Made by a program: the position numbers and the translations under genes. Shown here piece after piece: positions 8,523 through 15,524 of a DNA stretch of 37,251 bases (positions are counted from its first letter, which is position 1; each line of letters begins with the position of its first letter). This stretch comes from a virus, in IMG/VR virus record IMGVR_UViG_3300009551_000083, positions 1-37,251 of that record; one strand, given 5' to 3'. A model generated the notes under the pieces. The model was not told the origin of the DNA, did not search any database, and saw only the letters and a list, made by a program, of their open reading frames with translations.

Positions 8523-8601
8523 CAGGGCGTAGCTCAGTCTGGTCTAGAGTCCCTGCCTTGGAAGCAGGATGTCGTAGGTTCAAATCCTACCGCCCTGACC
8601 A
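8523..8601 (+). tRNA. tRNA-Pro (anticodon UGG)
   Basis: A full cloverleaf can be drawn: acceptor stem CAGGGCG/CGCCCTG, D arm GCTC/GAGT, anticodon stem CCTGC/GCAGG with loop CTTGGAA (anticodon TGG), T stem GTAGG/CCTAC with loop TTCAAAT, discriminator A and an encoded CCA. The C1:G72 first pair is characteristic of bacterial tRNA-Pro. It would read proline codons ending in A or G and support late translation. No second tRNA is seen nearby. Confidence 0.92.
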
Positions 8602-11145: not shown

Positions 11146-11161
11146 TTAACGGAGCATTCTG

Positions 11162-11320
11162 ATGAACGTCTGGCAATGCATCCCCTGCGGCAGCCAGTTG
11201 TGGCAGTTGTCCGGCACGCGCGCCATCTGCGCCAAGTGTGGCCGCATATCGGCGTCGATCGTGTTGAAGCTAGTGCCGGTCGAACCGACGGCGCAGACGG
11301 TTGAGGAGAACCAACAATGA
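11162..11320 (+). CDS. Small zinc-ribbon protein
   Basis: A 52-residue protein with two Cys pairs (CIPCGS at residues 6-11, CAKCGR at 23-28), a minimal four-cysteine zinc ribbon, then a hydrophobic strand and an acidic end. GGAG sits upstream of the ATG at 11162. The stop overlaps the next ATG as ATGA. Probably a nucleic-acid or protein-binding accessory factor; no family can be named. Confidence 0.7.
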   Translation: MNVWQCIPCGSQLWQLSGTRAICAKCGRISASIVLKLVPVEPTAQTVEENQQ

Positions 11321-11541
11321 AAGGCTACTGCCGCCGAGGCCACCTGATAGAAGGCGAGCGTGTGCGCAATGGCGTTCCTGGCCGGTTCTGCATCGTGTGC
11401 AAAAACCAATGGCGTCAATTGAGACGACGCCGGCCGAGCAAAATAACGGACCATCGCATCAACGAACTTGCCGGCATTTTGGCCAACCAATATTTTATAC
11501 CGCTGCCGATTAAGCTGCGGCTTAGCGAGGAATTTCGATGA
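11317..11541 (+). CDS. Small basic zinc-binding protein
   Basis: A 74-residue basic protein. Cys5 and His9 (CRRGHLIEG) and Cys25-x-x-Cys28 (FCIVCKNQW) can form a C-H-C-C zinc site, followed by an Arg-rich stretch (RQLRRRRPSK) and a helix. The pattern resembles the zinc site of phage HNH or DNA-binding accessory proteins, but no HNH residues are present. Overlaps both neighbours as ATGA. Confidence 0.7.
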   Translation: MKGYCRRGHLIEGERVRNGVPGRFCIVCKNQWRQLRRRRPSKITDHRINELAGILANQYFIPLPIKLRLSEEFR

Positions 11542-11804
11542 ACGGTTACTGGCTACTTGCTGCCATCGTTGCTACTTGCTTCGTCGTGGCGCTATTCGTG
11601 CCGCCGCGCTTGATACTGTGCATGGCGCTCGGTGCGGTCGCCGGCATACTGATACTGGCTGCCACCCGAGCTTGGCCTGCCGAGCCGTCGATATTCCTCG
11701 TCGCACTCCCCTCCTCCGGCAACGCGTCCGGCGCGTGGGTTGTCGTGCCGGGTGGGATGGCGTGGCGGACGGATCGGGTTTTTGCCAATGGAGGTGAGTG
11801 GTGA
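11538..11804 (+). CDS. Membrane protein with two N-terminal helices
   Basis: An 88-residue protein with two predicted membrane helices (YWLLAAIVATCFVVALFV; LILCMALGAVAGILILAAT) and a hydrophilic C-terminus (ALPSSGNASGAWVVVPGGMA). Function unknown; early-operon membrane proteins can act in superinfection exclusion. It starts at ATG 11538 (ATGA overlap). Its stop overlaps a GTG start as GTGA. Confidence 0.7.
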   Translation: MNGYWLLAAIVATCFVVALFVPPRLILCMALGAVAGILILAATRAWPAEPSIFLVALPSSGNASGAWVVVPGGMAWRTDRVFANGGEW

Positions 11805-12298
11805 GCGTTAGCACAAATGCAATGTTGGTCTACGGCTACGTGTGGGAAGACGAGGCCGATTTACTCAACCGAGAGGAAGAGGATGAAACCGAGTGGACGG
11901 AAGTCGTCGCGCGTCAACGCGGCATCGTTAATCCGTGGGATGCGTACCCGCCCGAGATTGAAGCGCTACCCTACGACCAGCGGCGCGAAGCCAGTGACCA
12001 ATGGTGCGACGAACATCGTGGCGCACTGAATATCTGGAATGACGCGAAGCAGGCGATAGCCGAGGAGTACGGCGTCGAGATTAGCTCACATGGTTCCGGC
12101 GAGTGGAGTTGTCCTGTAGTCAAGATTCTCGACGCAGGTTGGATAGCGCGACGTGGATACCCACAAAACTTGAGCGGCGAAGAACTCAATCGCAACCCGG
12201 AATGGGACAAGAAACTGGCTGACTTTTGTCGAGACCTAGAGATTGATTTGACGGAAGCGAAGGGACCGGGCTGGTTCCTCGCATCGTGGTGGTGCTAA
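11801..12298 (+). CDS. Acidic hypothetical protein
   Basis: A 165-residue, strongly acidic protein starting at the GTG 11801 (GTGA overlap, GGAGG upstream). It has a Glu/Asp-rich N-terminal region (EDEADLLNREEEDETEWTEV), a central WDAYPPEIEALPYDQR segment and a Trp-rich end (GPGWFLASWWC). The charge pattern is reminiscent of DNA-mimic or inhibitor proteins, but no family is recognised and this is only a thought. It lies between a membrane protein and two very small genes. Confidence 0.65.
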   Translation: MSVSTNAMLVYGYVWEDEADLLNREEEDETEWTEVVARQRGIVNPWDAYPPEIEALPYDQRREASDQWCDEHRGALNIWNDAKQAIAEEYGVEISSHGSGEWSCPVVKILDAGWIARRGYPQNLSGEELNRNPEWDKKLADFCRDLEIDLTEAKGPGWFLASWWC

Positions 12299-12319
12299 CC
12301 CCGCAACGGACTTGAGGTG

Positions 12320-12529
12320 ATGAAGGTGAGCGACGACGCAATGTGTTATGTGGCGAGCCATCCGGGTGAACCAGGATACTTTTTCGCATCCGTGATCGAC
12401 CCGAAGCGCGCCAAGGAAGACGCGAAGGAAATTGCCAAGCTGATTCGCAAGGGAGCGACGATCAGTCGCGTATCCGTCGAAGCTGCGCGCGCAGGTCTAT
12501 CCGAATACTTTGCATCGAGGAAACCATGA
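12320..12529 (+). CDS. Small helical hypothetical protein
   Basis: A 69-residue protein from ATG 12320; a GTG at 12326 with GAGG 8 bases upstream is an alternative start. The C-terminal half is a charged helix (KRAKEDAKEIAKLIRKGATI) then EAARAGLSEYFASRKP. No family is recognised. The stop overlaps the next ATG as ATGA. Confidence 0.6.
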   Translation: MKVSDDAMCYVASHPGEPGYFFASVIDPKRAKEDAKEIAKLIRKGATISRVSVEAARAGLSEYFASRKP

Positions 12530-12690
12530 CCACCCACCCCGATCCCCACGCCGATAAGGTCGCGCGACTTGAGTTGCGCCGAGTTCGCATGGGTAGCAAC
12601 ACCTTTGCGCTAGACCTGACCGATGGACGTTCCGTTGAGTTCGCCGGCAGGCCGGACACAGCAAAGGAGGGTGACACGAAAGGAGGTTGA
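12526..12690 (+). CDS. Small hypothetical protein ending in the inverted-repeat element
   Basis: A 54-residue protein (ATG overlaps the upstream stop). The core ARLELRRVRMGSNTFALDLT looks like a small beta-hairpin; the tail is Lys/Gly-rich. Its TGA (12688-12690) lies inside the left arm of the long inverted repeat at 12686-12817. Ribosomes finishing this gene would therefore disturb the RNA structure. Function unknown. Confidence 0.6.
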   Translation: MTTHPDPHADKVARLELRRVRMGSNTFALDLTDGRSVEFAGRPDTAKEGDTKGG

Positions 12691-12817
12691 TTAGGGCTGT
12701 TGCATGGATCGGCATGGCGCCATGCAATCGTCGGGTGGGTACCGGAACAATCAGCGCCGTCGCTGGCGACACTAAACACCAGGGGTTCCGGCATCCATGC
12801 AGCAGCACCTAATCAAC
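12686..12817 (+). ncRNA. Long hairpin RNA element with 24-bp terminal inverted repeats
   Basis: The left arm (12686-12709) pairs with the right arm (12793-12817) over 24 base pairs, with a single bulged base and one G-U pair. Inside are CCGGAAC (12742-12748) pairing with GTTCCGG (12785-12791), a perfect 14-bp palindrome GCATGGCGCCATGC (12712-12725), and a small hairpin CGCC/GGCG (12755-12768). The element occupies most of a 176-base gap between two genes. It has no T-tract and no recognised class. It could be a structured RNA, a processing site, or a non-autonomous mobile element. Confidence 0.6.
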
Positions 12818-12866
12818 TACCGAGCCGCAGTCTGGCGGTTCCTGTGCAACGAAGGAGGGTTGAGGG

Positions 12867-13091
12867 ATGAACGAACAGACACGTAGTTACACGTTAGGCG
12901 AAGCGCTGCCAATGGAGATGGCGCGCGTTCGGGATCAGGTCATGCCGGCCTATATCGCGATTGGCCCACCGGGCGCTTTCGCGCTGGCGATGATGCGCGC
13001 CGAACTCGACGCCGCGACCAAGGCGATCATGGAAGGCGATACGGTGGCCATGCTGCGCCACTACGAATCACTGCAAGGATATGACACATGA
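12867..13091 (+). CDS. Conserved-type phage hypothetical protein
   Basis: A 74-residue helical protein: YTLGEALPMEMARVRDQVMP, IGPPGAFALAMMRAELDAAT and a final MLRHYESLQGY. Short proteins with this exact layout (LGEALP.EMARVR ... GP.GAFA ... MLR.YE.L) are common in phages and prophages, function unknown. GGAGGG precedes the ATG at 12867. Its stop overlaps the next gene as ATGA. Confidence 0.75.
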   Translation: MNEQTRSYTLGEALPMEMARVRDQVMPAYIAIGPPGAFALAMMRAELDAATKAIMEGDTVAMLRHYESLQGYDT

Positions 13092-13687
13092 CCCCCACAT
13101 TTTCCGCAGCCGGGCATCGGGCGCTGGTGCAGTTAATTGCATCCGCTGATTGTCGAAGATTCGCCGAGAGCGAAACGGATGGAGTTAAGAACGCAGTATT
13201 TGTTACTCAGTACCACATCATTCCATCACATCAATGGGAAGCTATCACCCGCGCCGCCGAACTCGAACAATCGCAGAGCGCGCAGGGCGATTTCATCGAC
13301 ATAGTTTTCGATGGTCCGCCGGGACCGAATCCCGGCCGCTTTGTCGAAGTCGAAAACTCGAAAGGTGCGTCAATTCGTTTCGGCGAATGGGTGCATCGGG
13401 AAGACGGCCGCTGGGTGCTCAGGATTCAGAGCGCGCCGACCACAACACCTGTGCTAGATGATGACGGAAATCCGACCGGGTACTACAGAGAGCCTGACGG
13501 TTCGGTTGTCACTCTGGCCGACGAATACGATGCGGCTGACGATTGCGAAACATGCGGCGGTCGTGGCGTTGTAGGCGGCCCAACCGGACAAACGCCGGAG
13601 CAATTCGAGTATCGCACGGAGCCATGCCCGGACTGCCAGCCGACCGCAACACCTGGCGCGCAAGGCGCGGGGCAAGCGGATGGCTAG
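13088..13687 (+). CDS. Protein with DnaJ-type zinc ribbon at C-terminus
   Basis: A 199-residue protein. The N-terminal two thirds have an alpha/beta pattern (AVFVTQYHIIPSHQWEAITR; SIRFGEWVHREDGRWVLRI) with no recognised fold. The C-terminus carries CETCGGRG and CPDC, like half of the DnaJ Cys-rich zinc site. Such modules also occur in phage early proteins. Overlaps the upstream stop as ATGA. Function unknown. Confidence 0.7.
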   Translation: MTPTFSAAGHRALVQLIASADCRRFAESETDGVKNAVFVTQYHIIPSHQWEAITRAAELEQSQSAQGDFIDIVFDGPPGPNPGRFVEVENSKGASIRFGEWVHREDGRWVLRIQSAPTTTPVLDDDGNPTGYYREPDGSVVTLADEYDAADDCETCGGRGVVGGPTGQTPEQFEYRTEPCPDCQPTATPGAQGAGQADG

Positions 13688-13919
13688 TGCGGCATGCCTT
13701 CTTTGCGACCTGAACTTTGACGACGTGGGTGTTTGCTTCCAGTCCGCCTGTCCACTTTTCAATATCGAGTATTACGCCAATGAGCCAGTTTCCCGAATTG
13801 ATCGAGTTTCCCGAGCAGACCATGGTGTATGCGAAGGATCAACCGGAATACCGCCCGCTGCCAGCGCATCGCACGCTAGAAGGTCAGGTGACGTTCTGCT
13901 GGCGCCTAGGTTGGCGTGA
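13680..13919 (+). CDS. Possible Cys-rich small protein, overlapping the next gene
   Basis: A 79-residue frame whose first half is convincing (CLLCDLNFDDVGVCFQSACP, four cysteines, zinc-site-like), but whose second half is a shadow-like Ser/Arg-rich sequence overlapping the next gene by 140 bases. The true product may be real over its first part only, with a long overlap, or the stretch may be non-coding. It begins 8 bases before the upstream stop. Confidence 0.35.
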   Translation: MASAACLLCDLNFDDVGVCFQSACPLFNIEYYANEPVSRIDRVSRADHGVCEGSTGIPPAASASHARRSGDVLLAPRLA

Positions 13920-14049
13920 TCGCCTGCGCGTGCTCTGGAGTGGCTTGATATGGCATCAGGTGTTGACGTTCAACCAGCCGCTACAGCCGCAACTCCTGCT
14001 GACACAAAAACCTGACTTGGGGCAAGCGGATGGGGAGGGTGGGGCGTGA
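13780..14049 (+). CDS. Hypothetical protein with LPAH and WRLxWRxRLR motifs
   Basis: An 89-residue protein of a recurring phage type: TFCWRLGWRDRLRVLWSGLI and VLTFNQPLQPQLLLTQKP follow PLPAHRTLEGQ. The pattern (polar N-terminus with Pro, one Trp/Arg-rich helix, QPLQPQ tail) is familiar from several phages, function unknown. The helix is amphipathic, not clearly transmembrane. ATG at 13780; a poor ribosome binding site is the weak point. It ends 10 bases before the promoter at 14060. Confidence 0.65.
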   Translation: MSQFPELIEFPEQTMVYAKDQPEYRPLPAHRTLEGQVTFCWRLGWRDRLRVLWSGLIWHQVLTFNQPLQPQLLLTQKPDLGQADGEGGA

Positions 14050-14059
14050 AATGTCGCAC

Positions 14060-14088
14060 TTGACAGTGACATGTCACTGTGCTATACT
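14060..14088 (+). promoter_or_regulatory. Strong sigma70-like promoter inside the rightward operon
   Basis: The -35 TTGACA (14060-14065) and the -10 TATACT (14083-14088) are separated by exactly 17 bases. Transcription would start near 14095, 30 bases before the ATG at 14125. This is the best promoter in the window. The palindrome at 14063-14080 sits on it. Confidence 0.85.
14063..14080. promoter_or_regulatory. 18-bp perfect palindrome operator over the promoter
   Basis: ACAGTGACATGTCACTGT is its own exact reverse complement (9-bp arms, no spacer). It covers the end of the -35 and most of the spacer, so a bound dimer would exclude RNA polymerase. I see no second copy in the window by eye. 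Confidence 0.75.
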
Positions 14089-14124
14089 GGCTTCGCCAAT
14101 CGTGGCATGACCGGAGTAAATGAA

Positions 14125-14403
14125 ATGGCCGCACAGAAGAAATTGAGCAAGGTTGCCGAAGCCTACCAGCGTTGCAAGATTGCACGCGATACTTTGCATG
14201 CGCTGCCAAATTCCAAGCTGATGGAAACCGTCGAGGACAAGCAGTTTGGCATCGTCATGGAACGATGGATTCTGCTGTTCTCCAACAAGCACAAGACCGT
14301 CATGCTGTACGCGACACCGGACTGGTGGGATGTTTACTCGCCGCTGACAGACGATGCCAGCAATGATGCGACGGTCGAGGCGATCAAGGCATACGCGCAG
14401 TGA
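14125..14403 (+). CDS. Hypothetical protein driven by the palindrome-controlled promoter
   Basis: A 92-residue protein, first gene after the 14060 promoter. GGAG lies 8 bases before the ATG at 14125. The sequence (KKLSKVAEAYQRCKIARDTL; FGIVMERWILLFSNKHKTVM; YATPDWWDVYSPLTDD) is alpha/beta with many aromatics and no known motif. Being under its own strong regulated promoter is its most distinctive feature. Function unknown; an early takeover or immunity-related product is possible (inference). Confidence 0.7.
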   Translation: MAAQKKLSKVAEAYQRCKIARDTLHALPNSKLMETVEDKQFGIVMERWILLFSNKHKTVMLYATPDWWDVYSPLTDDASNDATVEAIKAYAQ

Positions 14404-14408
14404 GCGCA

Positions 14409-14552
14409 ATGTCCGTCAACGAACGGAAGGCTGCCGAGCGCGAAAGGATGCGCGCTCGTGGTTTCGTGCTGCGGCAGATTTGGGTTCATCCGAAAGACTG
14501 GCCGCGAGTGCAGACGTATCTTGAGCGCGTCATGCGCAGGCGGGACAAATGA
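14409..14552 (+). CDS. Small basic protein, antitoxin/RHH-like
   Basis: A 47-residue basic protein (ERKAAERERMRARGFVLRQI, WVHPKDWPRVQTYLERVMR). The pattern of a charged helix, a R(G)F-V-x-x-x-(I/V)WVHP strand and a second helix resembles short ribbon-helix-helix-like DNA-binding proteins and MazE-type antitoxins; this is a weak resemblance. Start at ATG 14409; a GTG at 14400 (GTGA overlap) is an alternative. The stop overlaps the next gene as ATGA. Confidence 0.6.
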   Translation: MSVNERKAAERERMRARGFVLRQIWVHPKDWPRVQTYLERVMRRRDK

Positions 14553-14863
14553 CCCCCTCGACACTACGGCATACGCTGGAACGGGCGCGGGACTTTATCG
14601 GCGAACAAAGGGTCGTGTGCGGGGATTACTTCCGCGCGCGTGGCTTGGAAGTTGAATTGCACGCGGTTATCGCCACCCTCCCGCCCGAAGGCGCAGCGGA
14701 AGACAGGCTGCCGACGTGGGCGCATGACGACGTGAAAGTACTGAAGTTTCTCAGCATCGCCATGCGTCATGTCGAAGTCGTTGGCACATTGCGCGCGCAA
14801 GATATTCGAGACGGCCTGCAAATTATGGCGTCGCGCGAACTAACGGAGAAACCCAATGGCTGA
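14549..14863 (+). CDS. Helical hypothetical protein
   Basis: A 104-residue protein, mainly helical (RHTLERARDFIGEQRVVCGD; FLSIAMRHVEVVGTLRAQDI). No family recognised. It overlaps the preceding gene by 4 bases and the following gene by 8 bases, and is in the group behind the 14060 promoter. No metal or catalytic motif is apparent. Confidence 0.65.
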   Translation: MTPSTLRHTLERARDFIGEQRVVCGDYFRARGLEVELHAVIATLPPEGAAEDRLPTWAHDDVKVLKFLSIAMRHVEVVGTLRAQDIRDGLQIMASRELTEKPNG

Positions 14864-15524
14864 CCCTACCCCGCGCCCAGCGTCGTCTAGCGAGATTGGC
14901 GAGGCATTGCTGCCGTGTCCGTTTTGCGGGACGACAGATTTGACCGTATGCACAAATGCAGTCGAGTGTGACGACTGCCACGCTCAAATAATTGACGACG
15001 AGTTAGACGAGCCGCCTATCGCAGCATGGAACACCCGCGCCGCCATCGCACAGCGCCCTGCGCCAGCAGACGGCCTCTGGCCTTTGGACAAGCGATGCGC
15101 CGATGCTCTGGCAGATGAGGTTGCCGTACTCGTCAAGCGCGGCGTGATCGACTCGCGCTCGCCGGCCGCTGATGCGCTGCTGGACTACCGCAATCCACCG
15201 TCAAGCCCGCGCGCCGATAGGCTGGCTGCGTTACTACCTCCCCCGCCCGAATGCGAGGGCGGGCAGGCGGTGGCGGATGCCAACGTGTCTGCCGTCATCC
15301 GCAAGCACGCCGAGCGTGAAGCCGCAGGACTGCGGAAGTACGGCGTATCGACGACTCGCGGCGATCTGTCGCGCGACGACTGGCTGCGCCACTTGCAAGA
15401 GGAACTGATGGACGCCGCCGTGTACATCGAAGCGGCGCTGTCGAATCCACCCACCGACCCCGTGCGCAGGGAGGCTACTTCAACGTCGCCCGCAACGCCG
15501 CCTGCGCCTGACGATGCGCCGTGA
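14856..15524 (+). CDS. Fusion: Lar-like zinc ribbon plus phage KYG/EELxDA domain
   Basis: A 222-residue two-part protein. Residues 20-62 are a Lar-type zinc ribbon (CPFCGTTDL; CDDCHAQII; IAAWNTR), the module of restriction-alleviation proteins. Residues 145-195 (HAEREAAGLRKYGVSTTRGD, WLRHLQEELMDAAVYIEAAL) match a common phage domain with an EELxDA helix, similar to MazG/dNTP-pyrophosphatase-like helical proteins. The linker is Pro/Arg-rich. The fusion suggests the two activities act on the same nucleic-acid or nucleotide target (inference). Its last 50 bases overlap the convergent gene at 15475-15732. Confidence 0.8.
   Translation: MADPTPRPASSSEIGEALLPCPFCGTTDLTVCTNAVECDDCHAQIIDDELDEPPIAAWNTRAAIAQRPAPADGLWPLDKRCADALADEVAVLVKRGVIDSRSPAADALLDYRNPPSSPRADRLAALLPPPPECEGGQAVADANVSAVIRKHAEREAAGLRKYGVSTTRGDLSRDDWLRHLQEELMDAAVYIEAALSNPPTDPVRREATSTSPATPPAPDDAP

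Follow-up and report, generated by a model that had tools for sequence, protein, structure and literature searches.

Several described systems resemble the locus reported here. RNase III substrates are double-stranded RNA stems, and a stem as long as the one described below fits among them; in the classic RNase III sites the loops are short and internal loops occur. The put sites of phage HK022 form short stem-loops. Miniature elements such as ERIC and Correia measure about 100-150 bp and are imperfect palindromes. Phage D3, whose relatives carry one of the comparators used below, is a well-studied temperate phage. According to a report on HK022 (PMC9378689), put RNA suppresses pausing and termination in early transcription.

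We analyzed a stretch of viral DNA of 37,251 nucleotides (positions 1 to 37,251 of IMG/VR record IMGVR_UViG_3300009551_000083), referred to here as the window. Between two small phage genes it contains a hairpin element of 132 bases (12686-12817). Our tentative reading, which we prefer to the alternatives while giving it somewhat less than an even chance, is that the element is an operon-internal structured RNA that would act through its double-stranded stem and be cut by RNase III.

Terminal stem and interior of the element

The left (5') arm of the terminal stem (GTTGATTAGGGCTGTTGCATGGAT, 12686-12709, + strand) and the right (3') arm (ATCCATGCAGCAGCACCTAATCAAC, 12793-12817, + strand) form the 24 terminal pairs claimed in a preliminary description of this DNA, including one bulge (A12807) and one U-G pair (T12700-G12802). 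The TGA codon at 12688-12690, which is the stop of the upstream reading frame (12526-12690), falls within the left arm, also as described there. When the whole element was folded as RNA, the minimum free energy was -62.9 kcal/mol (z-score -6.4) and none of the 200 dinucleotide shuffles folded as stably, so that its stability is beyond chance. In a scan of the 37-kb window for near-perfect stems the element was ranked first with a score of 20.5, the runner-up reaching 15.0. In 200 first-order Markov sequences of window length this score was never matched; their mean maximum was 14.8 and the largest value 19.0. Chance does not explain the terminal stem. With 24 pairs, it also lies within the length range of RNase III substrates (dsRNA of ~20 bp or more). 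The antisense strand folded equally well (-62.7 kcal/mol versus -62.9 kcal/mol for the sense strand) and folding therefore does not settle the strand of the element.

The 83-nt interior folded alone was no more stable than its shuffles (z-score +1.15). Thus, the significance lies wholly in the terminal stem, and neither the nested helix nor the palindrome inside it is independently significant. The nested 7-bp helix of the preliminary description (CCGGAAC at 12742-12748 and GTTCCGG at 12785-12791, + strand) is present in the sequence and was formed when the sub-region was folded alone, but it is absent from the minimum free energy structure of the whole element. A 9-bp alternative local hairpin (GUUGCAUGG / CCAUGCAAU, 12699-12728, + strand) competes with the left arm; its fold has -12.5 kcal/mol and a z-score of -1.2. 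This local hairpin could be the first to fold as the RNA is transcribed and thereby hold back the long stem.

The 14-bp perfect palindrome (GCATGGCGCCATGC, 12712-12725) was found as described, and four GCATGG/CCATGC half-sites are located inside the element. These repeated half-sites could in principle make the element a protein-binding site in DNA or RNA, serving as an operator or a cruciform. We regard this as very improbable, because the window shows no enrichment of the palindrome elsewhere (11 matches versus 7.6 expected, with 3 mismatches allowed) and no promoter lies nearby. An operator array was rejected for the first of these reasons.

Flanking genes, accessory cassette and searches for copies

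The upstream gene (12526-12690, + strand, 54 aa) ends inside the left arm, and the downstream gene (12867-13091, + strand, 74 aa) has a ribosome-binding site, AAGGAGG (12852-12858, + strand), that is outside the stem. No family match was obtained for either product. A small second hairpin with a 7-bp stem and a 6-nt loop (12822-12841, + strand), not followed by a T-run, is located between the element and this ribosome-binding site. The reading frames of the gap, sense and antisense, scored -0.29 to -0.73 bits/codon (about -0.37 across the gap), like out-of-frame sequence, whereas the three adjoining genes (12317-12529, 12526-12690 and 12867-13091) scored +0.05 to +0.37 bits/codon. On these scores we rejected a coding gap, in agreement with the earlier view that no gene in the gap is convincing. 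The reported absence of a T-tract after the element was also borne out, as the terminator scan has no entry there, and the pattern scan found no promoter or terminator pattern at the element. It does not qualify as an intrinsic terminator, having an interior of more than 80 nt and no T-run after the stem.

The element is contained in an accessory gene cassette (11311-15470, + strand). Two close relatives (L006 and L007) align with the window to 11310 and again from 15471, and have unrelated DNA in place of the cassette; neither has a comparable hairpin. The stretch 11149-11310 is 96-98 % identical in L006 and L007 and ends exactly at the cassette start, and the exonuclease gene adjoining it is just about 72 % identical in L007. 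The stretch 11149-11310 may be a recombination boundary. Within the cassette, a strong promoter-like sequence was observed at 14060-14088 (TTGACA-17-TATACT, a TG preceding the second hexamer; 11/12). The window also encodes a tRNA-Pro with anticodon TGG (8523-8601), detected by both ARAGORN and Rfam. An imperfect direct repeat flanks the element (12676-12690, ACGAAAGGAGGTTGA; 12849-12863, ACGAAGGAGGGTTGA).

If the element were a neutral remnant, left without function by a recent inverted duplication or at a cassette-exchange junction, its position in a replaced cassette, the flanking direct repeat and its presence in only one phage would all be accounted for. We nevertheless consider this explanation quite unlikely. 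The direct repeat consists in large part of ribosome-binding-site consensus, and the same-shaped hairpins and compensatory changes in unrelated phages (see below) indicate that such stems can be under selection.

Queries with the cassette and the flanking genes returned just the same phage or others lacking the cassette, and no homologue with the same flanks; homologues of the exonuclease were not found in genome contigs. The same phage is represented by contig IMGVR_UViG_3300025924_000008 (51,265 bases), which is identical to the window over the 6.2 kb compared and holds a single copy of the element. Beyond the compared part, terminase, portal-like and primase genes were present in the stretch read. 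Both arms in near-exact form, 70-100 bases apart, were absent from ~85,000 prokaryote genomes and were found in IMG/VR solely in the same phage; diverged copies could escape such near-exact patterns. The sole further match of a one-arm pattern (L004) was rejected as a chance match in what was taken as coding sequence. Only short chance matches were obtained by blastn in phage and plasmid collections.

These searches bear on the small mobile element that had been proposed as one possible identity and, more generally, on a DNA-level inverted repeat, be it a miniature inverted-repeat element or an insertion bounded by terminal inverted repeats. A length of 132 bp with 24-bp inverted ends is typical of these in size and form, and TA dinucleotides occupy symmetrical positions in both arms. 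However, the element is a single copy in the 51-kb contig, none further was found with the patterns used in IMG/VR and the ~85,000 genomes, or by blastn in the phage and plasmid collections, and no target-site duplication was seen beyond a possible bare TA. In addition, the pairing runs on outside the TA, so that the arms act as one unit. The DNA-level reading is disfavoured, and we think it improbable.

The preliminary description had recognised no known class, and Rfam 15 likewise gave no family at or above the gathering score in the region. The only weak match near the element (cow-rumen-1, E-value 8.5) lies outside it. A retron msr-msd was also considered, and no reverse transcriptase match was found among the neighbouring proteins scanned. 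In the literature covered, mostly outside subscription journals, no description of such an RNA class was found.

Long-stem hairpins in other phages

Long-stem hairpins were observed in phages S72, CUB19, SOVA965, Kintu, Cy-LDV1 and Dfl-JY45, and hairpins of the same build also in Marin, D14O, EV13, Cr-LKS3 and contig L036. Their folded outer stems of 20-32 bp enclose 45-99 nt, and their sequences differ. Because these comparators were partly found through a search for long hairpins, their count is no measure of frequency. IME307 was excluded from the stem and sense/antisense lists, as its row represents an upstream hairpin, and sliding z-scores based on a crude shuffle were disregarded. In many of the comparators the hairpin closely follows a terminator or is closely trailed by a T-tract, whereas the window element has neither.

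Besides the element, two stems scoring at least 18 were found in 0.6 Mb of related loci. The first is in Stenotrophomonas phage S72, adjoining an adenine methyltransferase gene. CUB19 has a relative at the corresponding place; there, SOVA965 and Kintu carry stems of unrelated sequence and the same form after a common terminator block. At the S72-type loci (L012:2154-2256, L074:3027-3123, L076:2845-2942 and L075:2881-2989) the long hairpins have sequences unrelated between phages and come after a shared terminator/promoter-like block near the methyltransferase gene. The window lacks the S72-type terminator block. The second stem is in an IMG/VR contig (L036:1352-1475, - strand; 124 nt, stem of ~30 bp), and this hairpin directly adjoins a match to Betaproteobacteria-1 RNA (RF02932) at 1229-1344. 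When lambda, T7 and P22 were used as controls, just two hairpins spanning more than 80 nt reached at least 14.5. They are lambda 44766-44884 (L108; score 16.0), which is the best large-span hairpin of that phage, lies in the late leader, just after the tR' terminator, and has no Rfam match, and P22 39544-39629 (score 15.0). The stem scan of T7 yielded nothing comparable to the element.

Cyanophage Cy-LDV1 was reached only via its homologue of window gene 12317-12529 (40-45 % identity), upstream of which it has a hairpin of 138 nt (L078:2181-2318). Dolichospermum phage Dfl-JY45 contains a relative (L080:374-523) that has the core in common with Cy-LDV1 and a different outer stem. This RNA is unannotated and has no Rfam match; it consists of a conserved core of ~95 nt, a T-arm-like hairpin and an outer stem of 25-32 bp. 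In the trimmed alignment 34 of 34 pairs were kept, with 7 changed on both sides, and when the partners were slid the both-side changes dropped to 0. This covariation between two aligned sequences is evidence of structure for the Cy-LDV1/Dfl-JY45 RNA and not for that of the window. A tRNA-like sequence below the ARAGORN threshold was also observed after the Cy-LDV1 hairpin (L078:2381-2451).

A short Cy-LDV1 match led to Pseudomonas phage Marin, and the Marin hairpin region to 59 Pseudomonas phage records. This D3-type locus is located between the orf67 and orf66 homologues in the leftward early operon, where a terminator is followed by the hairpin (Marin L082:790-923; others L090-L099). In the longer forms the basal stem (TTCGCCTGTATGCG...CGCATGCACGCGAA) is constant and the apical part is swapped for unrelated modules, most of which bring their own second paired stem. 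D3 itself has a short form of the hairpin. Among the D3 genes reported to license Gabija-mediated restriction, a host defence, is orf66 (PMC12407980); no evidence connects the hairpin with this restriction.

No sequence relationship of the element to these hairpins was detected. The covariance model built from Cy-LDV1 and Dfl-JY45 gave 7.8 bits on the element (E-value 4.1), below many chance matches. That built from S72 and CUB19 gave 6.4 bits (E-value 0.47 in 1.5 kb), from stem pairing only, and had no match in the 51-kb contig. Comparison of the element with the Marin, CUB19, Kintu and SOVA965 records yielded only chance words of 13-15 bases, and a joint alignment of the hairpin cores revealed no common pattern. 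A motif GCTGT(T)GC...GCAGC common to the stems of the window, S72, Cy-LDV1 and Dfl-JY45 looked suggestive but was rejected as post hoc and unsupported by the covariance models. The likeness of the element to the comparators is therefore one of architecture, for which common descent and convergence on form are equally possible.

The main rival of the operon-internal RNA reading is that the element is a phage RNA working in trans, for instance by inhibiting a host nuclease or defence system or by serving as its decoy. Its stem would protect or present an exchangeable interior, and its operon position would serve expression only. The comparators retain the stem while the enclosed core is swapped at one locus, T-arm-like hairpins occur in several cores (Marin, D14O and Cy-LDV1), and the element sits in an accessory cassette. 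On the other hand, the interior of the window element lacks a T-arm and shows no special structure, and the element has no promoter or terminator of its own. We therefore consider a trans-acting RNA unlikely, though worth keeping in view.

Proposed role and comparison with known systems

Among the identities first proposed, a regulatory RNA or RNase III substrate is best supported, since the gap is non-coding, the stem is beyond chance and same-shaped hairpins are kept in the early operons of other phages under changing sequence; the small mobile element found no support. Several points count against the operon-internal RNA reading: no homologue of the element that could show covariation was found, two comparator covariance models fail on it, its two strands fold equally well, and it lacks the adjacent terminator or T-tract of many comparators. 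In the preferred reading, the element would be a non-coding structured domain inside a polycistronic early/accessory transcript, and it is most likely kept for its shape rather than its sequence. The working part would be the near-uninterrupted stem of 24 bp or slightly more, without any particular sequence. The protein recognising this dsRNA would most likely be host RNase III, since the stem spans about two helical turns. RNase III would cut the transcript between genes 12526-12690 and 12867-13091, and the cut would separate the stability and expression of the two genes; a compact RNA of ~130 nt may be freed in the process. A ribosome that terminates at the TGA (12688-12690) would melt the stem at its base, so that translation of the upstream gene could delay folding or cutting.

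The element alone is one more unexplained hairpin; of greater interest is what the comparisons turned up. The trail led to several phage groups, including D3 relatives, in which a long stem has a fixed place and its sequence is replaced. If these are one phenomenon, they represent a phage RNA class that is invisible to sequence searches and Rfam, and that is directly testable in D3-type phages of Pseudomonas. The element could be one member of such a class, widespread and so far undescribed, although we find this rather doubtful. In it, the long near-perfect stem would persist while sequence and core turn over rapidly in the manner of an arms race, e.g. with the RNAs serving as decoys, some of them mimicking tRNA arms, against nucleases or defence systems of the host.

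Like the RNase III hairpins of the T7 early region and lambda, the element lies between genes of what would be an early polycistronic transcript and has a stem of about two turns. It differs from the classic RNase III sites in its interior of about 75-85 nt, and its cutting is presumed. With HK022 put it would have in common that both are phage RNA hairpins in early transcripts. It resembles ERIC and Correia in size and imperfect palindromic form but, unlike them, is unrepeated and without a convincing target-site duplication. The Cy-LDV1/Dfl-JY45 RNA is similar in size, stem length and sense strand, and differs in its conserved core with a T-arm-like hairpin. At the D3-type locus, unlike at the element, the basal stem is conserved and a terminator immediately precedes the hairpin, and the two have no sequence in common. 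However, both are early-operon hairpins in which a long, near-perfect stem encloses a long interior, and at the D3-type locus this interior differs between phages by exchange.
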